Source: Ruminococcus sp.
Lineage (GTDB): Bacteria; Bacillota; Clostridia; Oscillospirales; Ruminococcaceae
Direction of reading: 5' to 3'
Assembly: GCA_017437285.1 (NCBI GenBank)
Contig: JAFSBM010000156.1
Coordinates: 1 to 57,211 of the forward strand
Length of the DNA stretch: 57,211 nt
The notes beneath the pieces were generated by a model. It made no database searches. It was not told the DNA's origin and was given only the letters and a program-made list of their open reading frames with translations. Positions 168 to 55,304 of the stretch are shown here, piece by piece (the first letter of the stretch is position 1; each line of letters begins with the position of its first letter). Position numbers and translations under genes: made by a program.

Positions 168-303
168 TTATGCTAACAGCTAATAGCTAAAAGCTTTTAT
201 ACAAAAAAGACGGCAGAAATAATTCCACCGTCTACTTTCTAACATCTAACCTCTAAACAGCTAATGGCTAAAGGCTAACGGCTAACAGCTTTAAAAAAAG
301 CTA
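168..303 (+). repeat. heptad array with central bidirectional hairpin
   Basis: Tandem 7-mers of the form GCTAANN flank a hairpin at 209-232 (arms GACGGCAGAA / TTCCACCGTC, imperfect). The hairpin is preceded by A-runs and followed by TCTAANN heptads and then GCTAANN heptads. The array runs into the stop codon of the minus-strand gene at 304. It is a non-coding intergenic repeat that may terminate transcription in both directions. Confidence 0.75.
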
Positions 304-918
304 TTAGCTTTTTTTATTAAACTCATTATAAGCCTTAACAATCAAATCCGCACAAAGTTCATCGCCCAACTCACTATTGAGGCACAGGCAGTAAATGTCC
401 TTATCAAGCCAATTCTTGCCTGTATTCACATTGAAAAAAGTTTCACGGCGTTTGTCAGTTTTCTTCATAAAGCTTTCAGCCTTATTCTCCTTGATACCGT
501 ACTTTTCAACGGCACGTTTCACACGGTATTCCTGGGGAGCGTAGATAAAGACGCTGAAACAGCCCTTTTCTTCAAGAATATAGCTTCCGCATCTGCCGAC
601 AAGAACAAAGCTGTCCTCTTTATCTGCAAGCTCATTTATAATTTTGCTCTCCATAATGAAAACCTTATCCGACAACGGCAGGTTATCCTCTAAAGAACGG
701 TTTGGATTTGCCGTCATAAGAAGCGAATACAAAAAGCTTGTGGGAACAGTTTCTTCTGCACTTTCAATCTGTTCCTTGTCAAATCCGCATCTGTCAGCTG
801 TCATTTCAAGAATTTGTCTGTTATAGCAGTTTATTCCAAGTTTTTCGGCTACAATTCTGCCGATTTCACTTCCTCCGCTGCCGTATGTTCGTTCAATTGT
901 TATAATAGGTTTTTTCAA
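304..918 (-). CDS. cytidylate kinase-like protein
   Basis: This 204-residue protein belongs to the cytidylate-kinase-like (AAA_26) family of P-loop proteins. What is seen: the N-terminus ITIERTYGSGGSEIGR carries the glycine-rich loop GSGGSEIG (about residues 13-20). This loop lacks the GK[ST] of true CMP kinases, which is typical of the family. The conserved VLVGRCGSYIL follows near residue 105. Members are predicted nucleotide-binding proteins whose substrate is not established, so a CMP kinase role should not be assumed. A sigma-A-like promoter lies upstream on the minus strand. The stop codon TAA (304-306) sits inside a GCTAATA heptad, so the last residues KKS probably reflect repeat insertion. 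Confidence 0.8.
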   Translation of the reverse strand: MKKPIITIERTYGSGGSEIGRIVAEKLGINCYNRQILEMTADRCGFDKEQIESAEETVPTSFLYSLLMTANPNRSLEDNLPLSDKVFIMESKIINELADKEDSFVLVGRCGSYILEEKGCFSVFIYAPQEYRVKRAVEKYGIKENKAESFMKKTDKRRETFFNVNTGKNWLDKDIYCLCLNSELGDELCADLIVKAYNEFNKKS

Positions 919-993
919 TTTCTATTCCTCGCTTCCTGTAATAAATTTATTTTATATTTATATTATAATGTATAAAAACTCTACGGTAAAAAT

Positions 994-1022
994 ATTATAC
1001 CACGAAATCGGAAACTATTCAA
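994..1022 (-). promoter_or_regulatory. sigma-A promoter of the kinase-like gene
   Basis: On the minus strand TTGAAT (1017-1022) and TATAAT (994-999) are separated by exactly 17 bp, and the gene starts 76 bp downstream. It diverges from the pckG promoter. Confidence 0.6.
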
Positions 1023-1143
1023 CATTAAAATGTTAAAACAGAGAAATTTCTATTTTATATACAACAAATGTTGATATAATATATGCACTTTGACTAATAC
1101 TTTAAAAATTTGGTGATGTGTTAGAAAAATATCAATTTTGATA

Positions 1144-1172
1144 TTGACAGGTTGACAAAAATAAGATATAAT
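1144..1172 (+). promoter_or_regulatory. sigma-A promoter of pckG
   Basis: Perfect TTGACA (1144-1149) and TATAAT (1167-1172) with a 17-bp spacer. Transcription would start near 1180, giving a leader of about 170 nt that contains the 19-bp repeats. Confidence 0.75.
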
Positions 1173-3163: not shown

Positions 3164-3457
3164 TTGTATATTATAGCTATTAGCTTTTAGCCGTTAGCCA
3201 TTAGCTTTTTGGAACGGCAGGTTAATTAAGAATTAAGAATTATGGGCGGTAGATTTGTTTCTGCCGTCCTTTCTTTTGTATAAAAGCTTTTATCCGTTAG
3301 CCATTAGCTTTTAGCTGTTTAGAGGTTAGATGTTAGAAAGTAGACGGTGGAATTTTTTCTGCCGCACCCATTAGCTAATGGCTAACGGCTAAAGGCTAAA
3401 GGCTTAAAAAAAAGCTAATAGCTAACAGCTAACGGCTAAAGGCTCGAAAGGATAAAT
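3164..3457 (+). repeat. composite heptad/terminator region between pckG and pnuC
   Basis: The gap holds GCYNTTA heptads (from about 3177), a short GAATTAA run, and a hairpin GGCGGTAGA (3245-3253) with CTGCCGTCC (3261-3269) followed by T-rich DNA. A second heptad block follows, then TTAGATG-type heptads, a second GACGGTGG hairpin (about 3343-3365), and GCTAANN heptads that end just before the pnuC ribosome binding site. No gene is visible. Confidence 0.75.
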
Positions 3458-4150
3458 ATGAATAAATATTTTACAAAATCCGAACTTATGTTATGGCTCG
3501 GTTCGGTGGCGGCAATAATAACCGCCTTTCTGATATTCGACAGAAAAAGCTATATGACGCTTATCGCCTCTCTCATCGGGGTAACTTCCCTTATTTTCAA
3601 TGCCAAGGGCAACCCATTCGGTCAGCTGCTTATGGTAATTTTCAGCCTGCTTTACGGCATAATTTCCTACAAATTCGCCTATTACGGCGAAATGGTGACA
3701 TATTTAGGAATGACTATGCCTATGGCGGTGGTTGCCCTTATTTCGTGGCTGAAAAATCCTTATAACGGCAATAAATCAGAAGTTGCAGTAAATCGGCTTA
3801 AACTGGGAGAATACCTGTTTTCCGCACTTCTCACGGCTGCGGTAACTTTTATTTTTTACTTCATTCTGAAATTCCTCGGCACGGCTAATATGTTTTTCAG
3901 CACCCTTTCCGTTGCCACAAGTTTTATTGCGGTTTATCTCACATTTCGCCGCAGTCCCTATTATGCCATAGGCTATTCCGCCAATGACATTGTGCTGATA
4001 ATTATGTGGATTATGGCGGCAAAAGGCGATAAATCGGGAATTTCCGTTGCTGTATGCTTTGGGGCATTTTTACTCAATGACATCTACGGCTTTATCAGCT
4101 GGAGAAAAATGGAAAAAAGACAGACGAATTTTCAGGGGGGTAGCTGTTAG
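3458..4150 (+). CDS. PnuC-like nicotinamide riboside/mononucleotide transporter
   Basis: A 230-residue integral membrane protein with about seven hydrophobic segments. It resembles the PnuC family: an N-terminal LWLGSVAAIITAFLIFDRKS, a middle YGEMVTYLGMTMPM segment, and the C-terminal SANDIVLIIMWIMAAKGDKS with LNDIYGFISW. PnuC proteins facilitate uptake of NAD precursors, so this may complement nadA further right. The ribosome site AAAGGA directly follows a GCTAANN array. The stop codon TAG at 4148-4150 is inside a GCTGTTA heptad, so the C-terminal residues SC are repeat-encoded. Substrate is inferred from the family only. Confidence 0.8.
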   Translation: MNKYFTKSELMLWLGSVAAIITAFLIFDRKSYMTLIASLIGVTSLIFNAKGNPFGQLLMVIFSLLYGIISYKFAYYGEMVTYLGMTMPMAVVALISWLKNPYNGNKSEVAVNRLKLGEYLFSALLTAAVTFIFYFILKFLGTANMFFSTLSVATSFIAVYLTFRRSPYYAIGYSANDIVLIIMWIMAAKGDKSGISVAVCFGAFLLNDIYGFISWRKMEKRQTNFQGGSC

Positions 4151-4270
4151 CCGTTAGCCGTTAGCCATTAGCTATTATGGGCGGTAGTCTTTACGATTAC
4201 CGTCTTTTTTGTATAAAAGCTTTTAGCCGTTAGCCATTAGCTTTTAGCTTTTTTAAAAGCCGTCAGCTAT
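4139..4270 (+). repeat. heptad array with terminator hairpin
   Basis: GCYNTTA heptads run from the pnuC stop codon to about 4175. A hairpin follows with arms CGGTA / TACCG (about 4182-4203), then six Ts and a second heptad block. The array overlaps the end of pnuC and precedes the T-box promoter. Confidence 0.75.
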
Positions 4271-6376: not shown

Positions 6377-6473
6377 AGCTTTTAGCTTTTTTAAAAGCTG
6401 TTAGCTGTTAGCTATTAGCCGTTAGCCATATTAAAGCCTTTAGCCGTTAGCCTTTAGCTGTTAGCCGTTAGCA
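6377..6473 (+). repeat. GCYNTTA heptad array
   Basis: At least ten 7-mers (GCTTTTA, GCTGTTA, GCTATTA, GCCGTTA, GCCTTTA) in exact register, interrupted once near 6426. The array runs from the leuA stop into the dispersed palindromic element. TAG occurs in every unit. Confidence 0.85.
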
Positions 6474-6742: not shown

Positions 6743-6822
6743 TAATGCGTAATTCGTAATGCGTAATGCGTAATTATTTATAAAAGCCATTAGCTTTTAG
6801 CCTTTAGCCGTTAGCTTTTTGA
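6743..6822 (+). repeat. CGTAATN and GCYNTTA heptads
   Basis: Units TAATGCG/TAATTCG repeat in 7-bp register at about 6743-6775, followed by GCCATTA/GCTTTTA/GCCTTTA/GCCGTTA units at about 6785-6820. Between here and the ilvB promoter there is only AT-rich sequence. Confidence 0.75.
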
Positions 6823-9765: not shown

Positions 9766-11218
<1,453 letters not shown>

Positions 11219-11230
11219 AAAGACTTTTTT

Positions 11231-11448
11231 ATGAAAGATAATCTGATTGTAAGCAAAAGCAAAGCAGATTTTTATGCAAAACTTCATATCGCTGAAAGAG
11301 GCAGATGAAACTGCATATTGGTTTGAATTGCTTAACGAAAGCGATTACATTAAAGGGCATCTCTAAAGCTGAACACTTTCAGGATATATATGAAGATTGC
11401 AACGAAATAATCAAAATACTTGTGTCTATTTTGAAAAATAAAAGTTAG
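11231..11448 (+). pseudogene. decayed four-helix-bundle (23S rRNA IVS-type) protein
   Basis: Only the C-terminal half of the family is recognisable, in broken frames. The first frame reads SKSKADFYAKLHIAE then stops. A shifted frame continues EADETAYWFELLNESDYIKG, then a stop. The final part KAEHFQDIYEDCNEIIKILV runs to TAG at 11446. These pieces align in order with the family pattern (SKADF..KL.IA..E...YWLELL...GY, then a last helix). The N-terminal helices are missing. The sequence GGGCATCTCTAAA at 11355-11367, where the second frame stops, matches the 13-bp tip of the MITE found at 39421 and 47299. It may be an insertion scar, or chance. Confidence 0.75.
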
Positions 11449-11476
11449 GAATTATAAATTAAGAACATAGAATAAT

Positions 11477-11507
11477 CCTTAATTCTTAATTCATAATTCT
11501 TAATTAA
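11477..11507 (+). repeat. CTTAATT heptads before ilvD
   Basis: Units CTTAATT, CTTAATT, CATAATT, CTTAATT in exact 7-bp register, ending just before the ilvD ribosome site. Confidence 0.75.
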
Positions 11508-11531
11508 ATATATTGAGGTGAAAAAGAAACT

Positions 11532-13199: not shown

Positions 13200-13269
13200 A
13201 GCTTTTAGCTGTTAGCCGTTAGCTTTTAGCCGTTAGCCTTTAGCTTTTAGCCGTTAGTCTTTAGCTTTG
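13200..13269 (+). repeat. long GCYNTTA heptad array
   Basis: Nine to ten consecutive units in strict 7-bp register (GCTTTTA, GCTGTTA, GCCGTTA, GCCTTTA, one GTCTTTA variant). TAG falls at 13206, 13213, 13220 and so on, i.e. in all three frames within 21 bp. Confidence 0.9.
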
Positions 13270-13292
13270 TAGGGGCGGATATTATCCGCCCG
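13270..13292. repeat. REP-like palindrome
   Basis: GGGGCGGATATTATCCGCCC, preceded by GTA. Same unit as at 14084, 14780, 19650 and 24260. Confidence 0.8.
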
Positions 13293-16719: not shown

Positions 16720-17207
16720 AATATACAGGAAATGTTCTGAAATACGGCGATAACGTGGATACTGATGTTATTATCCCTGCCCGTTATCTCAACACAAGCG
16801 ACCATAAGGAGCTTGCCTCCCATTGTATGGAGGATATTGACAAGACTTTTGTAACCCGTGTTCAGCAGGGTGATATTATTACAGCAGGTCAGAATTTCGG
16901 CTGCGGTTCTTCCCGTGAACACGCTCCCATTGCTATTAAGGCAAGCGGTGTTTCCCTTGTTATAGCCAAAAGCTTTGCTCGTATCTTCTACCGCAACGCT
17001 ATAAATATCGGTCTTGCTATTGTGGAATGTCCCGAAGCTGCCGACAATATCTCCGAGGGCGATAAAGTCGAGGCTGATATGGATAACGGAATTATCCGCA
17101 ACCTCACTACAGGTCAGGAGTTCAAAGCTGCACCATTCCCCGATTTTATTCAGAAAATCATCGAAAACGGCGGTCTTATGGAGTCTATTGCTAAAGGGAG
17201 TATTTAG
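16716..17207 (+). CDS. leuD: 3-isopropylmalate dehydratase, small subunit
   Basis: 163-residue swivel subunit partnering LeuC. Motifs: [17 protein letters not shown] near residue 12 and the substrate-loop [14 protein letters not shown] (about 61-74). The ATG overlaps the leuC stop (ATGA), indicating translational coupling. The AGGT..GGAGGTAATGAGC region inside leuC serves as ribosome site. A heptad array starts just after the stop and separates leuD from leuB. Confidence 0.95.
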
Positions 17208-17275
17208 TTGAGCTATTAGCTTTTATCTGTTAGCCTTTAGCTAATGGCTTTTGGCTAACGGCTAAAGGCTCAAAA
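17207..17275 (+). repeat. heptad array between leuD and leuB
   Basis: GCTATTA, GCTTTTA, then GCCTTTA units switch orientation near 17240 to GGCTAACG/GGCTAAAG units. The array can therefore fold back into a stem. It ends directly at the leuB ribosome site AAAAAGGAG. Confidence 0.8.
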
Positions 17276-17287
17276 AGGAGAATAATT

Positions 17288-18367: not shown

Positions 18368-19562
18368 TATCCGTGAAAAACTGGACAATCTTCATTGCGG
18401 ACTTAATTCCCTTGCGGTATTCAGAAATATTCTGAAAAATGACGTTATATCGTCACTTTCCGCACTTCTTGAACTTCACGCCGAGGGAAAAAGCTTTGAT
18501 GTGAATATTTACTCTCAATTCGTTTCACGACTTTACTGCCATAATGTCAATCTTTCCCAATATATATTCAAGCTTGTCTGCGAGGACGAAAACTTCTATA
18601 TTTCGGGAAAATCCGAGGGCAAAACCTTTGATGAACTGATTGAATCAGCTGTGGTAAATGAACTTGAAATGCTCCGTGAAATCTCACAGCTTACCACTGA
18701 GGAACTGCAATACGGCTATTACCGCCTTTATCAGCTGCCCCAATGGAAAACAGCTGACATTGATTTTGTGGCTGAATACAGAAACCGCATTGAAAATATC
18801 GGGATTTACGGCTGCGGAGTTTTTGCCGAATCTACGATGTTTATTCTCCGCAATGGCGAAATCGTTCCCGTAAAAGCTCCCGATACACAGCGGCTTGATA
18901 TGCTTTTCGGCTATGAGCGTGAACGAAATGAGGTTATTGAAAATACCCTTGCTCTTGTAAAGGGCAGAACTGCACAGAATACTCTGCTTTACGGCGATGC
19001 AGGAACGGGAAAATCCTCAACTGTAAAGGCTGTTGTAAATGAGTTTTCACATATGGGACTGCGGCTTGTGGAAATTACAAAGGAGCAGTTACGTGAATTG
19101 CCTGAACTCATTGATAAATTAAGCGTAAATCCGCTGAAATTCATTATTTTTGTGGACGATTTAACTTTTACTTCGGGAGAAGATTGCTTCGGTGCGTTGA
19201 AAGCGGCTCTTGAGGGTTCAGTTTCCGCACGTTCCGACAATATCGCAATTTATGCCACAAGCAACCGCCGTCATCTCGTAAAGGAAAGCTTTTCCGACCG
19301 TGAGGGTGATGATGTTCACCGCAACGATACAATGCAAGAATTGCTCTCTCTGTCGGCACGTTTCGGACTTCGTGTGAATTTCAGCCGCCCCGACAAGAAG
19401 AATTACACCGCTATTGCTCTTGAACTTGCAAAGGCTAACGGCATTGATATGCCCGATGAGGAACTTTTCCTCAAAGCTGAACAATTCGCCATTTCTTCGG
19501 GAAACGGACGTTCACCGAGAACTGCACGGCAATTCATTAATCAATTAAGAATTATGAATTAA
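18360..19562 (+). CDS. DUF815-type AAA+ ATPase
   Basis: A 400-residue ATP-binding protein of the DUF815 family. Walker [11 protein letters not shown] lies near residue 212, Walker [11 protein letters not shown] near 261, and a sensor-like [20 protein letters not shown] near 299, with a C-terminal [14 protein letters not shown] lid. The N-terminal about 200 residues are helical and specific to the family. Biochemical role is not established. The 8-bp overlap with leuB is unexpected for a gene with no known link to leucine synthesis. The last six residues (QLRIMN) and the stop are encoded by GAATTAA-type heptads, so the original C-terminus may have been replaced. Confidence 0.85.
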
Positions 19563-19711
19563 GAATTAAGAATTGTTGGTATATAGCCATTTTATAGGGA
19601 CAGGTTGTGCCGTGTTCTTACAAACCGACTATATATTGTTGTTCGATGTAGGGGCGGATATTATCCGCACCTACCGATTTCTAACCTCTAACATCTAATT
19701 TCTAAAAAAGG
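19542..19711. repeat. heptads, REP unit, heptads between DUF815 gene and ilvA
   Basis: CAATTAA/GAATTAT/GAATTAA units (19542-19575) overlap the upstream stop. A REP palindrome GGGGCGGATATTATCCGCAC lies at about 19650-19669. TTCTAAC/CTCTAAC/ATCTAAT/TTCTAAA units (19679-19706) run to the ilvA ribosome site. Confidence 0.8.
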
Positions 19712-24257: not shown

Positions 24258-24368
24258 GTAGGGGCGGATATTATCCGCCATAACGTGTAGAAAAATGTAT
24301 ATCTTTGAACGGACACGGCACGCCGTGTCCCTACAAAACGGCTGCTCTATTGATTTCTAACTTCTAAA
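24258..24368. repeat. two REP-like palindromes and TCTAA heptads before cysE
   Basis: GGGGCGGATATTATCCGCC at 24260-24278 and GGACACGGCACGCCGTGTCC at 24311-24330 (with CTACA flank), followed by TTCTAAC/TTCTAAA at 24355-24368. Confidence 0.8.
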
Positions 24369-25046: not shown

Positions 25047-25117
25047 AGCTATTTGCTTTATAAAGCCTTTAGCCATTAGCTGTTAGGACGGTAGATTAAT
25101 TTCTACCGTCCTTTTTT
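25046..25117 (+). terminator. heptads plus strong terminator after cysE
   Basis: Heptads GCCTTTA/GCCATTA/GCTGTTA (about 25066-25085) lead into a perfect hairpin GGACGGTAGA (25086-25095) / TCTACCGTCC (25102-25111) and six Ts. The same module stands at 30450-30507 before the second LRR gene. Confidence 0.85.
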
Positions 25118-30447: not shown

Positions 30448-30449
30448 TA

Positions 30450-30515
30450 TGCTTTATAAAGCCTTTAGCCATTAGCTGTTAGGACGGTAGATTAATTTCT
30501 ACCATCCATTTTTTA
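30450..30515 (+). repeat. heptads and hairpin upstream of LRR gene 2
   Basis: Near copy of 25050-25117: heptads GCCTTTA/GCCATTA/GCTGTTA, then GGACGGTAGA with TCTACCATCC (one mismatch) and a T-run. It suggests duplication of the upstream region together with the gene. Confidence 0.8.
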
Positions 30516-30642
30516 GGGTAGTTTGCCAACGAAGTCACATCATAAATATAATAATCGAAAATAGGCACGTATATGATATAGTATATATATATATATATAT
30601 TGCGTATATATAGACAAATATGCACAAATATACCTAAAAGTA

Positions 30643-30760: not shown

Positions 30761-30793
30761 CAAAAAATAAAAGAGGATATGGAGGAAAAAATT

Positions 30794-33700: not shown

Positions 33701-34693
33701 CAATTATATTGTGGTGCTAATAAACTTACTTCCCTTGATTTAAGCAACAACACAGCATTAAAATATTTGGATTGTTATGATAATCAGCTCACTTTCCTTA
33801 ATGTAAGCAATTGTACTTCATTAACTGATTTATCTTGTTTTGGCAATAAGCTCACTTCACTTGATGTAAGCAACTGTACTGCATTAACTAATTTATCTTG
33901 TCGGGAAAATCAGCTTACTTCCCTTGATTTAAGCGGTAACACGGCATTAACTCGATTAGAGTGTGGTAAAAATCAGCTTAATTCTCTTGATGTAAGTAAT
34001 AATGCAGCATTAACCAACTTATTTTGTGAAGAAAATCAGCTCACTTCACTTGATTTAAGTAATAATACAGCATTAATTGATTTACTTTGTTATGAGAATC
34101 AACTTACTTCACTTGATTTATGCAATAACCTGGCATTAACTTACTTATTTTGTTATAGCAATAATCTCACCTCACTTGATTTAAGCAGTAATACATCATT
34201 AACTTCAATAAGGTCTGATGACAACAAATATGAAATCACCCTCACTGACAACACATTCGACCTTTCAACTCTCCCAGCAGGCTTTGATGTTTCAAAGGCT
34301 TCTGAGTGGACAAATGGTACAGTTGAGGGAAATATTCTCACAGTTAGGGACGCTTCAAAGAATATTATATACAAATATGACTTAGGAAATGGACATTCAG
34401 AAACATTCACTTTAGTTCCACAGATTGAAGAAACACCTGTTACAACAACTACAACTGCAACTACAACAGCTACAACTACTACCACAACTGCTGCTCCTGA
34501 AACAACTATAACTACAACTGCAACAACTACTGCTCCTGTAACTACTACACCCGCAACTACAACTCCCGAAGAAGACCTCCCACAGACAGGTTTCTCAAAT
34601 CTCTACAATTGTATTCCTGTTTCAGCAGGTGCATTGGTACTCTTAGGTATGTATGCTGTTAAAAAGAGCAGAAAAGAAGATGAAGAAGAATAA
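30794..34693 (+). CDS. LPQTG-anchored EF-hand/LRR surface protein 2
   Basis: 1299 residues, paralogue of the upstream protein with an almost identical signal peptide (SKMKKIAAMTAALLISASTM, then ANAAEEE). Start at 30794, since the earlier in-frame ATG at 30779 overlaps the GGAGG site. Three EF-hand/LRR modules begin near residues 46, 394 and 823; their loops are degenerate in the third (DTNKSNVLSAKE). LRRs are 21 residues with a conserved Cys. Repeats around 32.5-33.0 kb are nearly identical at DNA level. A Thr-rich stalk leads to LPQTG at 1262, a hydrophobic span and KKSRKEDEEE. No Ig-like domains. Predicted surface binding protein; ligand unknown. Confidence 0.9.
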   Translation: MSKMKKIAAMTAALLISASTMGYLPQDSLKISNVTANAAEEEITSVEINEANFPDLNFRDYIKSTFDTDYDGVLSAEEIAAVTSIILSEDGLHGETIVVSDLKGIEYFTNLVELNCNESNLTKIDLSKNKKLEYLSCESNDLTTLDLSSNTALVSLYCSRNLLTELDLTNNTVLEILSCGEAGFWSSGGNLLTELDLSNNTKLKTLMCDNNSLIKLDLSNNKNLTTLSCVNNKLTELDLSNNLELESLQCTNNRLTTLNISNNKALKSLYCYSNQLTTLDINKEAALDELYCFYNQLTSLSLSSYPPIEENIPFTPTEGNVYEITLTDNTFDLSTLPTGFDISKASEWTNATVEGNILTVEDASKPITYKYDCGCDVYETFTLISPDDLAEGSVVISSKNFPDYMFRYNISQEFDTDKDNILSAEEIAAVTEIECSGGFMGVHDITGIQYFENLKSFTFLDADFIELDLSHNKALEELHCGNVRSLDLSNNTALKILTVYDISFTTLDLSNNTALEELAIHNSILPTLDLSNNTALTYLDCDENQLTSLDVSNCTALTDLSCWGNQLTSLDVSNCSALTDLSCDNNQLTSLDLSGCSALTDLSCDNNQLTSLDLSGCSALTDLSCWGNQLTLLDVSNCSALTDLSCDDNQLTSLDVSNCSALEILGCGDNPLTSLDVSNNTALTYLHCGDNPLTSLDVSNNTALTYLYCGNNKLTSLDVSNNTALTSLHCGYNKLTSLDISKNTSLTSMRSDDNKYEIVLTDNTFDLSTLPTNFDVTKASEWTNATVKGNILTVEDTSEWVTYKYDCGNGHSETFTLIPQIEGEITGVEINETNFPDYNFRRCITQLIDTNKSNVLSAKEIASVTELNIEACGISDLTGIEYFENLKVLACVNNDIIELDLSQNKALEELQCGNVRSLDLSNNTALKILTVYDAGFTTIDLSNNTALEELYVSNNSLTSLDLSNNTALTQLYCGANKLTSLDLSNNTALKYLDCYDNQLTFLNVSNCTSLTDLSCFGNKLTSLDVSNCTALTNLSCRENQLTSLDLSGNTALTRLECGKNQLNSLDVSNNAALTNLFCEENQLTSLDLSNNTALIDLLCYENQLTSLDLCNNLALTYLFCYSNNLTSLDLSSNTSLTSIRSDDNKYEITLTDNTFDLSTLPAGFDVSKASEWTNGTVEGNILTVRDASKNIIYKYDLGNGHSETFTLVPQIEETPVTTTTTATTTATTTTTTAAPETTITTTATTTAPVTTTPATTTPEEDLPQTGFSNLYNCIPVSAGALVLLGMYAVKKSRKEDEEE

Positions 34694-34703
34694 TAATTAA
34701 CCT

Positions 34704-34738
34704 AATTCCCCGTGGCAAAAACTACGGGGAATTTTCTA
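34704..34738 (+). terminator. terminator of LRR gene 2
   Basis: AATTCCCCGT (34704-34713) with ACGGGGAATT (34724-34733) and a short T-run. Confidence 0.85.
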
Positions 34739-34755
34739 TACTTTATTCAATATAC

Positions 34756-34784
34756 TTGCATTTAATTTTATTATATGATATAAT
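34756..34784 (+). promoter_or_regulatory. promoter of LRR gene 3
   Basis: TTGCAT (34756-34761), 17-bp spacer, TATAAT (34779-34784). It shares the spacer end TTATATGATATAAT with the two upstream LRR promoters. Confidence 0.75.
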
Positions 34785-34837
34785 GTATTTAATCGTATTA
34801 CCACGATAAACTATCAAAACGAAATGGAGGAATTAAA

Positions 34838-37180
34838 ATGACAAAAATGAAAAAAATTGCAGCTATGACTGCGGCTCTGCTGATTTGTGCAGGAAATATG
34901 GGATATATGCCCGAAAGCACAATTTCAATCGGCGGCTTTACAGCTAATGCGGCAGAGGTTGCTGCGGAAAGCGTTGAAATCAACGAGGCAAATTTCCCCG
35001 ACGCAAACTTCCGTGAATTTATCAAGGAAAACTTTGATACCGACGATGACGGTGTGCTTTCAACTGAGGAAATTGCAGCTGTAACTGAAATTTACGTCAA
35101 TAAAAAGGGAATTTCTGATTTGTCCGGATTGAAATATTTTATAAAATTAAGGGAGTTATATTGCACTGATAATCAGCTCACATCACTTGATGTAAGTAAT
35201 AACACTGCATTGGAAGAAATAAAATGCAACGGCAATCAACTTACAACACTTAATGTAAGCAATAACAGAGCATTGCTGTGGGTGCATTGCAAAGATAATC
35301 AACTCACCTCACTTGACATTAGCAATAACAGCAAAATGGGAGAGTTGAGGTGTGACAACAATCAACTCACAACACTTGATGTAAGCAAAAACACAGCCTT
35401 AACCGGTTTATACTGCGACGGAAATCAAATTACCACACTTGATGTAAGCAAAAATACATCTTTATTTGATTTATCTTGCAGTTCTAATCAACTTACAACT
35501 CTTGATGTTAGTAATAATACGTCATTAAAATATTTATTTTGCTATTCTAATCAGCTTACAACCATCGATGTAAGTAATAACACGGGTTTAGAGCAATTAT
35601 CTTGTGGTTCTAATCAACTCACAGCACTCGATATAAGTAAGAACACAGCTTTAGAGTATTTATATTGCAGCTCTAACCAACTCACAACTCTCGATGTAAG
35701 CAATAACAAGAAATTGAATACCCTCTTTTGTAATGATAACCATCTTCCATTCCTTGACCTCTATGATACAGAAGCATCTATAGTTACGTGTGTCAATAAC
35801 GTATACGAAATAACCAGCTTAAATACTGTCTTTGACCTTTCAACTCTCCCGAAAGGCTTTGATGTTACAAAGACTTCTGACTGGACAAACGGCACAGTTG
35901 AGGGAAATATTCTCACAATTGAGGACACTTCAAAGGAAGTTACATACAAATATCTCTACGGATATGGAGTTTCAGAAACATTCACTTTAATTCCTACAAA
36001 ATCCGCAGAAACTCCCGAAAAGCCTCCTGTTTCATTCGGCGATGTAAACAACGACGGCACAATTGACTCCATTGACGCTTCATCAGTTCTTGCCCATTAT
36101 GCGGCTGTTTCAACAGGCGGCAGCTCTTCATTCTCCGCTGAACAGATAAAGGCTGCTGATGTTAACAAGGACGAAAAATGCGACTCTATTGACGCTTCAC
36201 TTATGCTTGCCTACTATGCACATACTTCCACAGGCGGTACAGGTACAATTGAGGACTACCTTTCAAATACAAACACCGCCGAACAGCTTAAAGCTCTCAG
36301 AGAAAAGAAAGAGTCCGAAGTTCAGCTTTTTGCGGCTGCTTATATAGGCTGCACCGATGATATGAATGAGGTTGACGCTGTTAAGTGGATAAAGGAAAAC
36401 AGCCCTGTTTTCTACGAAAATTACAGCTTTGTAGAGGATATTCCGTCAGGACAGATTGCAGGAACACCTATGGGTGAGCTTTACTGCATCGTTCCCTTTG
36501 ATGAAAATTCAACAGTTGCAATAAATCGTATTGTACAGGATGAAAACGGCAATGGTTCATATGAAAATGTTATCTACAGAAGTGAAAGCGGCGAGCCTGT
36601 ATTGCTTTTCTGCAACAACTCAGGGGTTGACGGCGATACAATGGTAACTATTACCGATTCTGACGGAAACAAGGATGTATGGTTCCCCGGACTCGATGAA
36701 AAGCTGATGATGAACTGCCCATATAATGCAAATTATGACACCTTTGTATACGATTTCTCGCAGTATCAGGAAATACTTGAAAAAGAGCATACATCACGCA
36801 AGAAAAACGGCTGGAATCTCCCAACTGCTGCCGATCTGCAATTTACTTACTGGTCAGGCGTTGATTACAGAGGCTCAGAAGTTATAGGCTCCTACCAAAT
36901 TGAATTTAGCGAAGATACAGCCTATATCAAGTGGGTTGACGGCGATGAGGAACACGAATTCAAGGACGTTGAATGGCAGCTTGAAGTTGAACAGGACGCT
37001 GCTGTTGTAACCTTTAATTTCAACGAATTTGCAGGTATTCTCCAATATAACTTCCTTTGGAATGAAAATAACAGTAAGCTTTATACAGCAGTAAACTTTA
37101 CAAATGAAGATACTTTAGACGAAAATTTAAAGCTTTACAGAATACTTGACAGATACGAATACTCTGAACCGATTTCATAA
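34838..37180 (+). CDS. dockerin-bearing EF-hand/LRR secreted protein
   Basis: 780 residues. Signal peptide as in the two upstream paralogues (KKIAAMTAALLICAGNMGYM), one EF-hand/LRR module (loop DTDDDGVLSTEE near residue 65, LRRs to about 305, cap FDLSTLPKGFDV), then a type I dockerin at about 400-467. The dockerin has two Ca-loop repeats, GDVNNDGTIDSIDASSVLAHY and ADVNKDEKCDSIDASLMLAYY. There is no LPXTG. The C-terminal 300 residues (YCIVPFDENSTVAI, WFPGLDEKLMMNCPYN, YWSGVDYRGSEVIGSYQIEF) match no family I know. The dockerin implies assembly on a cohesin scaffold, an alternative to sortase anchoring. Ribosome site TGGAGG. Confidence 0.9.
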   Translation: MTKMKKIAAMTAALLICAGNMGYMPESTISIGGFTANAAEVAAESVEINEANFPDANFREFIKENFDTDDDGVLSTEEIAAVTEIYVNKKGISDLSGLKYFIKLRELYCTDNQLTSLDVSNNTALEEIKCNGNQLTTLNVSNNRALLWVHCKDNQLTSLDISNNSKMGELRCDNNQLTTLDVSKNTALTGLYCDGNQITTLDVSKNTSLFDLSCSSNQLTTLDVSNNTSLKYLFCYSNQLTTIDVSNNTGLEQLSCGSNQLTALDISKNTALEYLYCSSNQLTTLDVSNNKKLNTLFCNDNHLPFLDLYDTEASIVTCVNNVYEITSLNTVFDLSTLPKGFDVTKTSDWTNGTVEGNILTIEDTSKEVTYKYLYGYGVSETFTLIPTKSAETPEKPPVSFGDVNNDGTIDSIDASSVLAHYAAVSTGGSSSFSAEQIKAADVNKDEKCDSIDASLMLAYYAHTSTGGTGTIEDYLSNTNTAEQLKALREKKESEVQLFAAAYIGCTDDMNEVDAVKWIKENSPVFYENYSFVEDIPSGQIAGTPMGELYCIVPFDENSTVAINRIVQDENGNGSYENVIYRSESGEPVLLFCNNSGVDGDTMVTITDSDGNKDVWFPGLDEKLMMNCPYNANYDTFVYDFSQYQEILEKEHTSRKKNGWNLPTAADLQFTYWSGVDYRGSEVIGSYQIEFSEDTAYIKWVDGDEEHEFKDVEWQLEVEQDAAVVTFNFNEFAGILQYNFLWNENNSKLYTAVNFTNEDTLDENLKLYRILDRYEYSEPIS

Positions 37181-40808: not shown

Positions 40809-40850
40809 TTTCAAGCCTTTAGCCATTAGCTGACGGAAACTGTAAATTAT
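40809..40850 (+). repeat. heptad remnant
   Basis: AAGCCTTTAGCCATTAGCTG: three GCYNTTA units without a complete hairpin, in an otherwise featureless AT-rich gap (40649-41021). Confidence 0.65.
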
Positions 40851-50130: not shown

Positions 50131-50286
50131 GTACCGAAATTGCAGGCGGATTATATCCGTCCCTAAGATTATGGAAAACCTGAATTTCGTACCGAAATTG
50201 CGGACACAGCACGCTGTGTCCCTACAGATTATATCAACATATAATAGCTTGCAACAACATAATTACGCATTACGAATTACGCATTG
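50131..50286. repeat. REP-like units and CATTACG heptads
   Basis: GTACCGAAATTGC with a degenerate GGCGGATTATATCCG palindrome (50145-50159), then GTACCGAAATTGC with GGACACAGCACGCTGTGTCC (50202-50221), a spacer, and CATTACG/AATTACG/CATTG units. The block from about 50160 is nearly identical to 52680-52804. Confidence 0.85.
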
Positions 50287-50374
50287 AAAAAACGGACGGC
50301 AGAAAAAATTCCACCGTCCAAAAAGCTAAAGGCTAATGGCTAAAAGCTAAAGGCTTTAAAAAAAGCTTAAAAAT
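50287..50374 (+). repeat. heptad-hairpin element absent from the paralogous locus
   Basis: Hairpin GGACGGCAGA / TTCCACCGTCC-type (about 50294-50319) then GCTAAAG/GCTAATG/GCTAAAA/GCTAAAG heptads and an A-rich tail, 88 bp in all. In the duplicated copy at 52805-52810 the same position holds only 6 bp, so this is a discrete insertion. Confidence 0.85.
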
Positions 50375-52636
50375 TCAGCTTTGTTCGCTTAACATTATTG
50401 AAACCCTGTTCTGTATCATTTCGGCACATTCCTCGGCTGTATATTCGCCGTTAATATATAGGAGAAATTCTTCATTGCAGATACTGCTTATTTGCTCGCT
50501 GCTGAATATTTTTGCGGTGCATCTGCTTACCACATTGCGGATTAATTCAGCCTCATCCTCGGTGATGTACAGGTTGTAAGGGACGATATATCCGTCAAAT
50601 CCAAGCTCACCCACGGGATTTTCCTGCCCTTCCGCAAGAGTATTTTCCGCAAGCGATTTTTCAAAGGCATTTTTCAAGGTAAAAAGCCTGCCGCTGTCAT
50701 TTTCCGAGGATTGATATTCCTCACTCATTATATAGGAAATGAACTCCCACGCACCCTCTTTGCAGTCGGAATTTTCAGTTATAGAGTAAAAATCCTGAAA
50801 TCCCACAGTTCCGCCCGAATTGGTATCGGGGAATGAGAGATAACTAAGACCGTCAATGCCAAGCTGATATGTATTGAGCATCTGAAAATCCCGTATATAG
50901 TTCATTCCCTCGGCAAAACCTATCATAGCTGTTCTGTTTTTCAGAGATGTTGCAACTTCCGCCGCCGAAGCGTCTGACGATGCAGTTTCGGCATTGCGGC
51001 AGAATTCAAGAAAACGGATAAACTCCTCGGAATTGAAACGGCATTTATCACCGTCAATCCAAGCCGCAAGATTATCGAAATATCCACCTGCACAAAATCT
51101 GCCGAAAACATTTTCGGGGGAACGTGTGTAATAGTCGTAACTCAGCTTCATTCCCGCAGGGCGGCTTTCGTAAAGGGTGAAAAATTCGTCAAAACTCCAG
51201 TCTGTGTATTCCTCACCGATAAAATTTTTATCGGCAATAATGCAGTTGATGAAAAATGTGGGACTAATCCCATAAAGGCTGTCCCTGTACTCCAGAGCTT
51301 CAACTACATTTTGGAGAATATCGGCTTTTTCAACTCCGTCATACTGCTCCATAAGCTGATACATATCGGTAATTCCGCCTAAATTCACAAGATTTTCCAT
51401 AATTGTAACATCATTGTATTTTATAATATCAGGGGCATTGCCTGTGAGAATTTCCATTTTTATATCGTCAAACTCTGCTGACTCTCTTATTTCAAGGAAA
51501 TATTTGTCGGAGCGCTTATTGAAATCATTGGCAAGAACCATATAATCCTCATTGTTATAGGTACAGGCAAGAGTTATTTTTTCCCTGTCAAGGGAGTAGT
51601 CGTCGGAACGTGGGAAAATCCTCGAAATAAAGGGCAGTCCCTTATTCGTACCGTAGATGAAAAAGTCATTGCCGCCCTTTTCCACCGTGTAAATATCGCC
51701 TACAGGGAGGTATGATGCGGAATAATCCACAACAAGTTCAACTTCGTGATTTTCCGTCACGCCATAAATTCCGTCAACGCACGAAATATAGAGCAGAAAT
51801 TCACCGTCACCTGCAAATACATTTCCGTCAGCTACAGCATTATTCAGCGAAATATCCTCAGAAAACCGATAATTTTCATCAATGAAATTCACCGTCTGAT
51901 ATTCGGCAGCAGCAATTTTCCCCTCAGCATAAACACCTGCATGCACAATCATGGAAGTATTGGGAATTTCCGTGATTTCTCCGCTTTTTTCCATAATCAT
52001 AAGACCGTTATTCGTTGTGACGAGAAACGACTCATCGTTAAATTTTTCAATGGAAATCGGCTCTGTGCCTTTAGTGTTGTAGTAGTAATCCATATCCGCA
52101 ATTTCATTTGAGTAAATTTCCTGCTGATTTTCGTCAAACTCCTTTAGGGTATAGAAATATCCCGAATGTTTGAAATGGTCCTCGGCATTGTCGGAAACTC
52201 CACTTGATTTTCTTTCGGAAATGAGAACCGTGATTTTTCCTGTTTCGTCAATGTCCGATATATACCTCAGTCCTCCACCGTTTTCGATAACGATTTTCTC
52301 CGAATAATCGGCAAAATCCAAGGAATAGACGCACAGTTTCAGATTAAAATCCATATCATTATAAAGGACGTAAAAACTGTCCTTTTCGGCGATATACTTC
52401 ATATTCTGAAAATTCCAGAAATCCTTTGGCAATGCAATCTTTTTTTCTCCGTATATTGTCTGTCTGAAATTTTCGTCAATTTCGGCAGTTTCCCCTGTAT
52501 TTTCGCTGACGGCTGCGGAGTCGCTGTATTCAGCTTTGCTTGATTCGGGTTTGCTTTCGGCAGCAGGCTTTTTCTCCTCGCATGAAACACCGCAAAGGGC
52601 GATAATTGCGGTTAAAAATGATAATAGTTTCTTCAT
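50375..52636 (-). CDS. solute-binding-type lipoprotein A
   Basis: 753 residues. A signal peptide with a probable lipobox (FLTAIIALCGVSC) anchors the protein at the membrane surface. The first about 330 residues form a region rich in beta strands of unknown type (propeller-like). The second part looks like an extracellular solute-binding protein family 1: KITLACTYNNEDYMVLANDF, APDIIKYNDVTIMENLVNLG, YGISPTFFINCIIADKNF and TDWSFDEFF. No permease or ATPase is adjacent. The lipobox has Gly at -3, which is unusual. A paralogue lies immediately upstream, sharing the C-terminal AEECAEMIQNRVSIMLSEQS. Confidence 0.8.
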   Translation of the reverse strand: MKKLLSFLTAIIALCGVSCEEKKPAAESKPESSKAEYSDSAAVSENTGETAEIDENFRQTIYGEKKIALPKDFWNFQNMKYIAEKDSFYVLYNDMDFNLKLCVYSLDFADYSEKIVIENGGGLRYISDIDETGKITVLISERKSSGVSDNAEDHFKHSGYFYTLKEFDENQQEIYSNEIADMDYYYNTKGTEPISIEKFNDESFLVTTNNGLMIMEKSGEITEIPNTSMIVHAGVYAEGKIAAAEYQTVNFIDENYRFSEDISLNNAVADGNVFAGDGEFLLYISCVDGIYGVTENHEVELVVDYSASYLPVGDIYTVEKGGNDFFIYGTNKGLPFISRIFPRSDDYSLDREKITLACTYNNEDYMVLANDFNKRSDKYFLEIRESAEFDDIKMEILTGNAPDIIKYNDVTIMENLVNLGGITDMYQLMEQYDGVEKADILQNVVEALEYRDSLYGISPTFFINCIIADKNFIGEEYTDWSFDEFFTLYESRPAGMKLSYDYYTRSPENVFGRFCAGGYFDNLAAWIDGDKCRFNSEEFIRFLEFCRNAETASSDASAAEVATSLKNRTAMIGFAEGMNYIRDFQMLNTYQLGIDGLSYLSFPDTNSGGTVGFQDFYSITENSDCKEGAWEFISYIMSEEYQSSENDSGRLFTLKNAFEKSLAENTLAEGQENPVGELGFDGYIVPYNLYITEDEAELIRNVVSRCTAKIFSSEQISSICNEEFLLYINGEYTAEECAEMIQNRVSIMLSEQS

Positions 52637-52661
52637 AAAATTCCTCCTTTGGGTAATTCAC

Positions 52662-52804
52662 GGGCGGATAATATCCGCCCCTAAGATTATGGAAAACCTG
52701 AATTTCGTACCGAAATTGCGGACACAGCACGCTGTGTCCCTACAGATTATATCAACATATAATAGCTTGCAACAACATAATTACGCATTACGAATTACGC
52801 ATTG
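52662..52804. repeat. REP-like units, duplicate of the 50.2 kb block
   Basis: GGGCGGATAATATCCGCCC (52662-52680), CCTAAGATTATGG, GTACCGAAATTGC, GGACACAGCACGCTGTGTCC (52720-52739), then the CATTACG heptads. The sequence is nearly identical to 50160-50286, showing that the lipoprotein gene was duplicated with its 3' flank. Confidence 0.85.
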
Positions 52805-52810
52805 TTTTCG

Positions 52811-54907
52811 TCAGCTTTGTTCGCTGAGCATTATGGAAACTCTGTTCTGTATGATTTCCGCACATTCTTCGGCAGAGCAAGCACCTGCGAAATATCGGGA
52901 AATTTCCTCATTGACAATGCTGTTGATACTGCTATCGTAATTTCCCGAAATTGCACTTGTGATACTGCGGACAAATGTTTCGTATTTCTCCTGTTCAGCC
53001 TTGGTCATAGGGGTAACTTCCACCTGTGAACCCGTGTCAAAATCATAGCCTGTTTCTTTCATAGGTACTTTCTGTTTGCTCGCTCCGTCGATGTAATACG
53101 GCGGTTCGAGGGCTTCTTCCATTGCAATTTCAAAGCCATTTTCTGTTACGGGAATACCACGGATATTTCCGTAATATCTGTCATCTCTGAAAAATGTGCG
53201 GATAAAACTCCACGCACCGTCCTTTGCAGGGGAATTTTCCATAATTGCAAACTGATTCGAAAGCGTCATAACAGAGCCGTTTCCGCTTTCTGAGGGGAAT
53301 CCCACAAAGGCTATGTCATCGCCGAAAATCGCCTGTTCCTGTGCATTTATATCTCTGAAAGATTCGATATACAAGGTTGAAATCAATGCTGTATCGTTGC
53401 GGCAGGAGGTTGTTTCCCACGAATATTCCTCAACACTTGGGAATTCAGCGGAAAATTCAAGTATATCCATAAAATCCTGCGAATTAAATGAACAAGTGTG
53501 AGTGCCGTAATCAACAAAATCGTTACAGTCGTCGGATAAAAAACCAAAAACAGCATCTCTGTTGTTTGCCGATTCAAACAGCGTCATTTCGGGAGAATTC
53601 GCCTCATAAACCGCTTTGAATTCTTCAAAAGTCCAGTTCTGAATATCAGTATGCTTGGATTTTGCGGCAATAGTCTTTATTGTAAATACGGGAGCTATTG
53701 AAAAAAGCTGACCGTCAGTTTCAGCTGCCGCAAGATAATTCGGCAGAAAAGCATCACGGCTGTACCTGCTGTCGCTGTCCATAAATCCGTATAAATCGGC
53801 AAATGCACCCTTTGAGGAAAGCTTTTCAATTTCGTTTGTGTCAAGGTATACCATATCAGGTATTTTTCCCGAAATAATGTCCATTTCAAGGTCATTCACA
53901 GCGTTTTCAACTCCCTCGGCACTATATTCATAGCTGTCAAGGTAATTTTTTAAATCAATCTGATACAAATTGCTCTCTGCGTTGAAATCCGCAATCATAG
54001 GCTGAATTTCGTCAATTTTAGATGCTGCCGCAAGGGTAATCGTCTGCATTTGGCTATATTCAGCAATATCACGCTCCGAAAGCTTGTACAGTTTACCCTC
54101 GGACAGACAGGCGAATTCTCCCTTTGCTATCGGAGAAATTGCACTGATTCCGCTTAATCCCGAATCGGTGAAATCAATCAGTTTTTCCGTTGTTTTGTCC
54201 GATCTCAAGCCATAATATCCGCTGTTCTCGACATAATGGCGGACATAGCCGTTTACGGATTCCATATAATTATCGGCTGATTCTTCGGTAAGCTTTTCAA
54301 TTACATTACCCTCTGTATCAACGAGAAGAAAAGTGCCGTCAATGTCTAAAATCAGCCTATTTTCCCCTGCATAACTCAAACTTCTGACACCCTTGTAAAG
54401 GCAATCCGAAAGCAAGCTGTCATCAATGACAAAATCGCATACAGAACGCACATTTCCGCTTATATCGTAGATTTTCAGCTTGTAGGTGTATGAATTTTCT
54501 TCATTTTCTTCCCCTTGTTCGGCAGTCGAAATGAAAGCAAAAATATTATTTTCCGAAACCGCAAAAGCAATGTTTTCATCTTTAGAATAATCAATTTTCA
54601 GTTTCAGGTCAGCGTAACTGTACATTGAAAAATCGCTGTCGGTTATGCAGACTTTGAGATTTCCCTCGGAATCGTTGCCGATTATGTGGAGAATTCCTGA
54701 TTTTTCGCTGTAGAAAATGCTGCTTATTCCCTGTAATTTATCGGGGAATGGCATTTCCGTTTTCTTGTAAGGCTTTGAGATGTCCACAATCTGCACTTCG
54801 CCCTTGTTGATAACGGGCGGATTATTTTCCGCAGGTTTGTCCGAATTGCAGGAAACCACGGAACATAGGGAAATAAAGGCAGTTAAAAATGATAAAATTT
54901 TCTTCAT
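52811..54907 (-). CDS. solute-binding-type lipoprotein B
   Basis: 698 residues, paralogue of the neighbouring lipoprotein. Signal peptide with a good lipobox (FISLCSVVSC, Cys about residue 20), N-terminal beta-rich region, then the solute-binding-like half: MQTITLAAASKIDEIQPMIA, IPDMVYLDTNEIEKLSSKG, FSIAPVFTIKTIAAKSK, NWTFEEFKAVYEANSPEM and a conserved SPAKDGAWSFIRTFFRDD. Its C-terminus AEECAEIIQNRVSIMLSEQS is almost identical to that of the paralogue while the rest has diverged, suggesting gene conversion at the 3' end. No transporter partner is visible. Ribosome site AAGGAGG. Confidence 0.8.
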   Translation of the reverse strand: MKKILSFLTAFISLCSVVSCNSDKPAENNPPVINKGEVQIVDISKPYKKTEMPFPDKLQGISSIFYSEKSGILHIIGNDSEGNLKVCITDSDFSMYSYADLKLKIDYSKDENIAFAVSENNIFAFISTAEQGEENEENSYTYKLKIYDISGNVRSVCDFVIDDSLLSDCLYKGVRSLSYAGENRLILDIDGTFLLVDTEGNVIEKLTEESADNYMESVNGYVRHYVENSGYYGLRSDKTTEKLIDFTDSGLSGISAISPIAKGEFACLSEGKLYKLSERDIAEYSQMQTITLAAASKIDEIQPMIADFNAESNLYQIDLKNYLDSYEYSAEGVENAVNDLEMDIISGKIPDMVYLDTNEIEKLSSKGAFADLYGFMDSDSRYSRDAFLPNYLAAAETDGQLFSIAPVFTIKTIAAKSKHTDIQNWTFEEFKAVYEANSPEMTLFESANNRDAVFGFLSDDCNDFVDYGTHTCSFNSQDFMDILEFSAEFPSVEEYSWETTSCRNDTALISTLYIESFRDINAQEQAIFGDDIAFVGFPSESGNGSVMTLSNQFAIMENSPAKDGAWSFIRTFFRDDRYYGNIRGIPVTENGFEIAMEEALEPPYYIDGASKQKVPMKETGYDFDTGSQVEVTPMTKAEQEKYETFVRSITSAISGNYDSSINSIVNEEISRYFAGACSAEECAEIIQNRVSIMLSEQS

Positions 54908-55304
54908 AAGAAGTCCTCCTTGTGATGTTTTTCAGAAGTTTTTTCAACGTCCTGTAACATAGTGTATTTAGAGGGCAAAAAAGTCAAAGTTTTTTGAAAT
55001 TTCGGCGAAATAACCTGTTAGCATTTGCTAAATTTGTGCATTTTGTTTAATCAAGCCGTTAGCTGTCAGCCGTTAGCCTTTAGCTGTTTAGAGGTTAGAG
55101 GTTAGATGTTAGAAAGTAGACGGTGGAATTATTTCTGCTGTCCATTTTTGTGCGATGATGATTTAATTCTGTGTAGGGGCGGATATTATCCGCTTTTTTA
55201 GCTATTAGCCTTTAGCTTTTCGGCAATGCGTAATTATTTTAAAGAACCTATAGCTAATAGCTAATGGCTTTTTAAAACTGACCGCTTTCAGGAAAAATCT
55301 GATA
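54908..55304. repeat. heptad/hairpin region with REP unit upstream of DUF3810 gene
   Basis: Heptads GCCGTTA/GCTGTCA/GCCTTTA near 55050-55085, TTAGAGG/TTAGATG units, then GACGGTGG with a degenerate GCTGTCC arm (55119-55143). A REP palindrome GGGGCGGATATTATCCGC at 55176-55193 and further heptads at 55199-55275 follow. No gene. Confidence 0.75.

Follow-up and report, generated by a model that had tools for sequence, protein, structure and literature searches.

In this work we examine the tandem 7-bp repeats that lie between the genes of a 57,211-nt stretch of Ruminococcus sp. DNA (contig JAFSBM010000156.1 of assembly GCA_017437285.1, positions 1 to 57,211 of the forward strand, hereafter termed the window), and relate them to genes for four-helix-bundle (4HB) proteins, a family associated with the intervening sequences (IVSs) of 23S rRNA genes. 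We consider it likely that these arrays represent the arms of small IVS-like 4HB elements, or of gene-less remnants or derivatives of such elements, located between genes, with those of the window probably being for the most part gene-less arms that act as RNA stems. At the level of sequence, the arms have a period of 7, are mostly inverted relative to each other, are built from a unit specific to the element, occur in several phyla as well as in true 23S rRNA IVSs, and gain or lose whole units between sister species. Each repeat family of the window represents its own type of arm within a single kind of element, the features common to all being a 7-bp period, inverted pairing between the two sides of a core and an association with 4HB genes.

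Period-7 arrays in the window and its genome

Arrays were detected through a motif-free period test in which 19 or more of 28 positions had to be identical at a given lag, with non-coding DNA defined as that outside open reading frames (ORFs) of at least 100 aa. The non-coding DNA of the window (8.0 kb) yielded 23 period-7 places and its coding DNA (49.8 kb) none, whereas 20 dinucleotide shuffles of the non-coding DNA averaged 0.1 and never exceeded 1; each of the other periods from 4 to 13 gave at most 3 places, and the harmonic period of 14 gave 13. Across a 637-kb sample of the window's own 4.13-Mb genome (G000; 41 stretches, the window included) we recovered 101 period-7 places; five shuffles gave 1.4, and coding DNA contained 3. 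A pattern of three GCTAANN units, GCTAANNGCTAANNGCTAA, matched 260 + 448 = 708 times throughout this genome and its reversed form not at all. The same pattern was present in 13 of 60 genomes, every one from the window's own genus, and in 46 of 125 genomes of that genus (G000 being included in both counts), with the reversed control giving one match in one of the 125 (G122) and none elsewhere among the genomes searched. By shuffle, coding and genome-wide counts, the arrays are neither a product of chance nor confined to the window, which bears out a preliminary description that had reported a genome-wide-looking family in exact 7-bp register in the gaps between genes, and had proposed a test of intergenic enrichment and the comparison with shuffled DNA. 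All 22 of the coordinates given there carry the motif named for them, in the printed sequence, at the place itself or within about 30 bp.

By pattern search, window clusters with at least two tandem units fall into the families GCTAANR (18), CGTAATN (3), GAATTA[AT] (4) and TTAGANN/TCTAANN (5), the arrays at 24355, 25066, 30455 and 40810 being just 2-3 units long. The last two bases of the unit had been described as freely variable, which does not hold for both: among 252 GCTAANN units of the 637-kb sample, position 7 is a purine in 248, and position 6 is never G, so that the unit is GCTAANR (TTAGCYN on the opposite strand). Purine-ended units similarly make up 107 of 109 in stretches of the relative G008, 67 of 67 in G062 and 78 of 78 in G035. 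The density of arrays along G000 is uneven, with 80 GCTAA arrays of at least two units in 356 kb (L031-L050, including contigs C2, C13 and C15, which were picked for known arrays) and only 6 more in some 281 kb (L063-L082), giving 86 after the addition of 20 stretches.

Heptad arms around 4HB genes

In the relative G008, an inverted pair of arrays about 360 bp apart encloses an ORF whose product (P0001) matches the profiles PF05635 (23S_rRNA_IVP, E 7e-42) and TIGR02436 (four helix bundle protein, E 1e-41). The location of this gene inside heptad arms leads to the prediction that 4HB genes elsewhere carry such arms. A first set of 50 4HB loci comprised 12 from plasmids, 30 from Ruminococcus and 8 of viral origin, with L255, L256 and L264 dropped as near-identical to L257. 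Period 7 was detected upstream in 37 of these loci, downstream in 40, on both flanks in 35 and on either in 42; periods of 4-6 and 8-13 were found in at most 6, and control windows within the same loci were positive in 14 of 507 cases. Scores for inverted pairing between the two flanks of the same locus reached at least 14 in 41 of 50 loci, as against 8.6% of cross pairs, and scores for direct pairing reached this level in 10 of 50. With thresholds unchanged, a hold-out set of 40 loci, 30 among the best-scoring Clostridia matches to TIGR02436 (391 genomes) and 10 from plasmids, gave period 7 on both flanks in 13 and on either in 26, other periods (bar 14) in at most 2, and controls in 6 of 453; own-partner inverted pairing was seen in 19 of 40 loci versus 1.7% of cross pairs, and direct pairing in 5. 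Of the hold-out plasmid loci, 9 of 10 passed on both flanks, and those that passed represent six phyla: Cyanobacteriota, Spirochaetota, Bacteroidota, Chloroflexota, Pseudomonadota and Bacillota. The plasmid records covered in the analysis were 14 of 35 matches in one search and 8 of 25 in another.

Heptad-like flanks are visible by eye in most of the 12 plasmid loci of the first set (11 cyanobacterial and one gemmatimonad), 8 of which are period-7 positive on at least one side, with L217, L218 (the gemmatimonad locus), L219 and L222 failing; Ruminococcus and viral 4HB loci have heptad flanks likewise. The units themselves are diverse, and include GGGAACA/TGTTCCC in Nostoc, GTGACAG/CTGTCAC in Anabaena and AGGGTGT/ACACCCT in Calothrix. 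GCTAAAA, a member of the window's GCTAANR family, flanks 4HB genes in Calothrix and, in direct orientation, in Pseudanabaena. Among 113 loci in total, inverted 4HB arms are of GCTAANR type in 8, CGTAATN in 5, GAATTAW in 1 and TTAGANN in 5, a tally in which near-identical copies are counted and which was made without a chance control. Since units without TAA (GGGAACA, AGGGTGT, GTGACAG and GCAGAAG) form the same type of array around the same gene family, the TAA core, noted earlier as shared by the families, is not supported as the feature that unites them. The same units bear on the notion of three-frame stop cassettes, in which a TAA every 7 bp would be selected to end translation in all frames: a TAA or TAG is present in every window family, and an array marks the end of some window ORFs, but many 4HB arms elsewhere are built of stop-less units such as GGGAACA and AGGGTGT, and we rejected this notion as a general cause, deeming it extremely improbable.

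Arms of this kind also surround 4HB genes within rRNA. Four near-identical loci of G372 (L344-L347) contain a 4HB gene in TTAGANN-type heptad arms, and Rfam (RF02541) identifies L344, the copy examined, as a 23S rRNA gene, as it does the Azospirillum plasmid locus L322; both have heptad arms around the 4HB gene. For the Coxiella IVS, a published account describes heptameric direct repeats upstream of the S23p start and cleavage by RNase III within the end stem (PMC4990558). Taken with L344 and L322, these repeats place heptad arms in classical IVSs too. It could be argued that the arrays are instead a target for insertion of 4HB genes and no part of the element, and G000 and the majority of array-bearing genomes do have arrays with no 4HB gene detected. 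Insertion into ready-made arrays should give two flanks of like orientation, yet the arms are mostly inverted, for which reason this candidate was rejected; with arms also bounding 4HB genes inside 23S rRNA, it appears very unlikely.

Within the window, positions 11246-11445 hold a decayed 4HB gene recognised by tblastn with the protein of L252 (E 4e-10), and a search of the whole of G000 with this protein matched these pieces only (E 4e-5 and 9e-4). The inverted GAATTAA arms that enclose it (Table 1) are paired with each other in the predicted fold (z -6.8), and the region 11139-11508 is, as judged from its sequence, a decayed 4HB cassette. Elsewhere in the window, an array stands alone as a single arm or is accompanied by hairpins, and a 4HB gene was seen at none of these sites. 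Across the genus, GCTAANN arrays occur in 13 of the 14 genomes that have a strong 4HB match and in 33 of the 111 others (p 7e-6, uncorrected for kinship).

A number of observations weigh against the arrays being arms of 4HB elements, or restrict the generality of this explanation. In the first set, L215 and L218 score for direct but not inverted pairing, and L259 and L263 score higher for direct than for inverted. Clostridia loci of the hold-out set pass on both sides in just 4 of 30 cases and on at least one side in 17, and 14 of all 40 hold-out loci pass on neither (L285, L286, L288, L289, L300-L303, L305, L308-L310, L313 and L323). Among 20 further loci from multi-copy genomes, which were read by eye only and are included in the 113-locus count but outside the period scoring, 13 are without heptads (L348-L352, L356-L363) and L355 is equivocal. 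Given these failures, the arm rule is strong rather than universal. The correlation between arm unit and protein similarity, calculated likewise without L255, L256 and L264, is r 0.07 (p 0.01) across source groups, and leaves sequence-specific recognition of the arms without support; strict co-evolution of protein and unit was also considered and rejected, as the overall r of 0.30 (0 of 2000 permutations as high) is not maintained across groups. In G000 there was no 4HB match by P0001, PF05635, PF22296 or TIGR02436 despite its 708 arrays, the most of the genomes searched (the three profiles gave no match in control genomes either, and two of them, TIGR02436 included, matched relatives), and 33 of the 46 array-bearing genomes of the genus are without a strong 4HB match. 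Neither a target-site duplication, sought by eye in aligned copies, nor a clean empty site at the sister sites compared was found. Finally, the explanation gives no reason for the period being 7.

Several 4HB loci are of interest for their setting. In cyanobacterial plasmids, 4HB genes occur in CRISPR operons, at cas6-cas4 (L215 and L216, with period-7 flanks) and, in L217, between cas10 and a cmr3-type gene with flanks that look repeat-like by eye and failed the period-7 test. Other junctions recur, as named from reading of the flanks: before argH (L224-L227, L229), asd-dapA (L239-L252) and before atpD (L230, L235, L248), where the 4HB genes carry different heptads; these may be insertion hot spots or reflect old inheritance. 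At L302, L303, L305, L308-L310, L313, L351 and L361-L363, repeated hairpin units (ATTTAGCTA...TTTAGC, or tandem units of about 20 nt) replace the heptad arms and perhaps constitute a second arm architecture. Matches to 4HB proteins were also found in two phage records.

Gene-less elements and variation between relatives

In G008 and G062 many arrays form inverted pairs with arms about 50-90 bp apart, organised as AGCCN(TTAGCYN)n, one or two hairpins, and (GCTAANR)nGGCT. Arrays most often have four TTAGC/GCTAA boxes (25 of 45 in G008 and 15 of 27 in G062), and four or five boxes make up the common Ruminococcus arm. The order TTAGC-then-GCTAA outnumbers its reverse by 11:2 in G000, 15:0 in G008, 9:0 in G062 and 6:0 in G035, and folding of four hand-chosen stretches, among them window 11139-11508 and 17207-17276, gave z of -5.7 to -6.8. 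Alignment of G008 with G062 at 16 places identified one array present in G062 only. At 7 of the remaining 15 places an arm differs in length by 7 or 14 bp, and no in-arm length difference of any other size was seen; among in-arm point changes, five affect N or R positions and two affect the five core positions.

In 19 gene-less elements the free N position pairs across the arms in 13 of 54 cases, compared with 41% expected (permutation p 0.003); the deficit is less certain in gene-bearing elements, with 5 of 25 (p 0.014) or 7 of 25 (p 0.11) paired, depending on how the arms are anchored, in what is a small sample from one genus with G062 orthologues excluded from part of the count. An excess of mismatches of this kind is what avoidance of perfect palindromes would look like. 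Shifting the arms by one unit leaves pairing low (10 of 58 and 15 of 60, in 26 distinct gene-less elements), and the deficit may therefore reflect the letter use of whole arms rather than a fixed register. Selection for full pairing across the arms was rejected as a candidate, the purine/pyrimidine position being paired in 85% of cases versus 87% when permuted and the free position falling below expectation.

Relative to L083, a locus of the sister genome G149, genes of the window are 94-96% identical at 10.6-19.5 kb and 91% identical at 19.7-24.3 kb; at the places inspected the intergenic gaps largely differ, and several differences start right behind a stop codon and stop short of the next start. 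Site 13197 is occupied by a TTAGC array in the window and by a CGTAATN array in L083, L084 and L087. At site 17207 the window has an inverted TTAGC/GCTAA pair, L083 and L086 have different, ORF-containing inserts of about 500 bp (about 530 bp in L083), and L084 and L087 have short gaps. Since the DNA of G149 is quite different between genes at most sites compared, these differences are not polarised.

Variation of this type raises the question of whether ordinary microsatellite slippage in AT-rich intergenic DNA, with local growth and shrinkage, gave rise to the arrays, their nearness to 4HB genes in relatives being incidental. Sister genomes differ by whole 7-bp units, one array common to G000 and G149 has four units in G149 and is tandemly expanded in G000, long arrays with a 21-bp higher-order unit are reported by Tandem Repeats Finder (TRF), and in the G000 sample arrays of two units are as common as those of four (28, 16, 27 and 5 arrays of 2, 3, 4 and 5 units, respectively). 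Slippage would not, however, be expected to make period 7 alone stand out where shuffles give almost none, to produce a second size peak at four units (in G000, and 25 of 45 arrays in G008), or to generate inverted polarity, flank-specific pairing and an association with 4HB genes, and we regard it as quite unlikely to account for the arrays.

The heptads could also be binding sites for a host protein (a regulator, a nucleoid protein or an RNA-binding protein), with the 4HB genes a side issue. The strong conservation of GCTAANR, in which position 7 is a purine in 500 of 506 units from four species and N varies, is consistent with such a role, and a precedent exists in the proposal, made by MacGregor 2015, that TAACTGA repeats of Beggiatoaceae are sites of a post-transcriptional regulator (PMC4679880). 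Units nevertheless differ from element to element, such that many heptads surround one gene family, and some arrays immediately follow a stop codon and are remote from any start. A host-protein role is in our view unlikely, and arms of 4HB elements remain the explanation we favour.

Array inventory of the window

Table 1. Heptad arrays and the decayed 4HB gene of the window (positions in nt).
Position	Strand	Feature	Basis
172..195	+	GCTAANR array	TRF, pattern clusters
238..256	+	TCTAANN (TTAGANN) array; family also forms arms of 23S IVS L344 and near-identical L345-L347	TRF, pattern
256..290	+	GCTAANR array	TRF, pattern clusters
3174..3206	-	TTAGCYN array, then TTTTTGGAACGGCAG, resembling relatives' arm-hairpin junction	TRF, pattern, sequence reading
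3224..3242	+	GAATTAA array	TRF, pattern clusters
3285..3317	-	TTAGCYN array	TRF, pattern clusters
3319..3337	-	TTAGANN array	TRF, pattern clusters
3374..3444	+	GCTAANR array(s), inverted relative to upstream TTAGC arrays	TRF, pattern clusters
4141..4172	-	TTAGCYN array at end of ORF 3458-4150	TRF, ORF list, pattern
4218..4252	-	TTAGCYN array	TRF, pattern clusters
6396..6472	-	TTAGCYN arrays	TRF, pattern clusters
6743..6774	+	CGTAATN array; unit forms arms of 4HB genes L239, L249, L251, L252, L318	TRF, pattern
6785..6819	-	TTAGCYN array, four units	TRF, pattern clusters
11139..11176	+	GAATTAA left arm of 4HB cassette, begins at upstream gene's stop codon	TRF, fold
11246..11445	+	Decayed 4HB gene, with stops and pieces in more than one frame	tblastn
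11473..11505	-	CTTAATT right arm, inverted to left, just ahead of next gene's start region	TRF, fold
13200..13268	-	TTAGCYN array, 9 in register	TRF, sister comparison
17207..17275	.	Inverted TTAGC/GCTAA pair, hairpin between leuD-like and leuB-like genes	Sister comparison, fold z -5.7
19543..19574	+	GAATTA[AT] array at gene's stop codon	TRF, pattern clusters
19679..19705	+	TCTAANN array ahead of next gene's ribosome-binding region	TRF, pattern clusters
24355..24368	+	TCTAANN, two units, missing in sister L083	Pattern, sister comparison
25066..25085	-	Short TTAGCYN array adjoining GGACGG hairpin	Pattern clusters
30462..30481	-	Short TTAGCYN array adjoining GGACGG hairpin	Pattern clusters
40816..40832	-	Short TTAGCYN array	Pattern clusters
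50262..50285	-	CGTAATN family (ATTACGN)	TRF, pattern clusters
50321..50355	+	GCTAANR array, four units, beside GGACGGCAG hairpin	TRF, pattern clusters
52780..52803	-	CGTAATN family (ATTACGN), copy of 50262 site	TRF, pattern clusters
55054..55088	-	TTAGCYN array	TRF, pattern clusters
55088..55113	-	TTAGANN array	TRF, pattern clusters
55196..55220	-	TTAGCYN array	TRF, pattern clusters
55250..55269	+	GCTAANR array	TRF, pattern clusters

Two pairs of the tabulated sites flank a large ORF. Stretches of about 65 bp at 50220-50285 and 52738-52803 look identical, end in the ATTACGN arrays and lie on either side of ORF 50375-52636, and a near-identical combination of short array and GGACGG hairpin at 25045-25105 and 30440-30500 flanks the large repeat ORF 25466-30406. 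The latter belongs to a region (25466-37180) of large ORFs with 63-bp (21-residue) tandem repeats that read as leucine-rich-repeat-like. Palindromes of GTAGGGGCGGATATTATCCGCCC type occur in the window at about 13269-13292 and 19648-19672 and also in L324-L343, and are perhaps GTAG-tagged repetitive extragenic palindromic (REP) sequences; in G035 they are often joined straight to heptad arms.

Proposed mechanism and relation to known systems

In the mechanism we propose, a complete element would consist of an upstream heptad arm, a core formed by a 4HB gene or by one or two hairpins, and the same heptads inverted. Such elements would occupy intergenic gaps, often directly behind a stop codon and ahead of the next start, and on transcription the arms are predicted by folding to pair into a long imperfect stem that encloses the core. 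By analogy with rRNA IVSs, RNase III may cut this stem and remove the element from the transcript, which would make elements tolerable within operons, for example argG-argH, atpG-atpD and asd-dapA (again named from their flanks) and those of cas genes. An arm that gains or loses one unit should still pair, and arms could in this manner survive slippage. As a guess, the 4HB protein, whose relatives in the PDB (2gsc and 2rld) have five chains each, might bind the arms or serve movement, and gene-less copies might either move in trans or be dead.

A bolder and rather improbable extension would see bacterial heptad arrays, those of cyanobacteria included, as largely the arms of a single class of RNA-level elements with an orphan S23p/Avd-like 4HB protein. 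A five-fold ring of this protein would read about five 7-nt steps per arm much as TRAP does with its triplets; a mismatch every 7 bp would be kept so that an RNA stem can form without a perfect DNA palindrome, and mobility would proceed via RNA. On the favoured explanation itself, heptad arms of 4HB elements may account for the origin of 7-base repeats in several bacterial groups. If it is true, two old puzzles would merge, namely the origin of intergenic heptanucleotide arrays and the role of the 4HB "23S rRNA intervening sequence protein" outside rRNA, and 4HB genes in operons (cas6-cas4 and cas10-cmr3-type, on cyanobacterial plasmids) may be inserted elements rather than parts of CRISPR systems.

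Short tandemly repeated heptanucleotides (STRRs), intergenic 7-bp arrays of cyanobacteria, have been known for decades, and cyanobacterial repeats were reportedly the subject of work by Elhai in 2008 and Mazel in 1990. The preliminary description had noted a likeness to them, with which we agree, in that the window arrays are similarly tandem, 7-bp, intergenic, dispersed and present in many copies. The likeness extends to TAACTGA in Beggiatoaceae, for which one study describes intergenic heptamer arrays with mostly 7-nt indels between two strains and other heptamers interspersed (MacGregor 2015, PMC4679880); a term search of that paper for four helix, S23 and intervening sequence gave no match. 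What distinguishes the arrays described here from both is that they are, on our reading, inverted arms of 4HB elements, a link made by no paper among the matches listed from the open-licence literature.

BOX elements and miniature inverted-repeat transposable elements (MITEs) are small, non-coding and intergenic, with a terminal inverted structure or variable short tandem units. Elements of the window type share with these their inverted arms, and differ in the 7-bp unit, in the tie to 4HB genes and in that no target-site duplication was found by eye in aligned copies. REPs are described as palindromes of 20-40 bp, the GTAG kind being tied to RAYT transposases (PMC3733652). Similar-looking intergenic hairpins adjoin arms in the genus (for example the GTAGGGGCG palindromes of G035), whereas the heptad arms themselves, in contrast to GTAG/CGTC REPs, are not palindromes.

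With regard to the protein, P0001 weakly matches Avd of diversity-generating retroelements (NF033474 and PF22296 bAvd; E 6e-9 and 7e-8, below the curated cut-offs), and homology between Avd and PF05635 is noted in PMC10053308. Its score on NF033474 is, however, 36.1 bits against a cut-off of 80, and its strong match is to PF05635/TIGR02436. The IVSs of 23S rRNA genes in Leptospira, Coxiella and others resemble the elements described here in having an S23p/4HB gene between complementary ends that form a long stem. In the window, a 4HB ORF between such ends is found only at 11139-11508, in decayed form, and stem-forming ends are predicted by folding there and at 17207-17276, many window arrays being single arms. 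By ORF and sister comparison the arrays lie between protein ORFs or at their ends and not in a 23S rRNA gene, and it is this position between protein genes, together with their mostly gene-less state and many copies, that sets the elements of the window apart from the classical IVSs.

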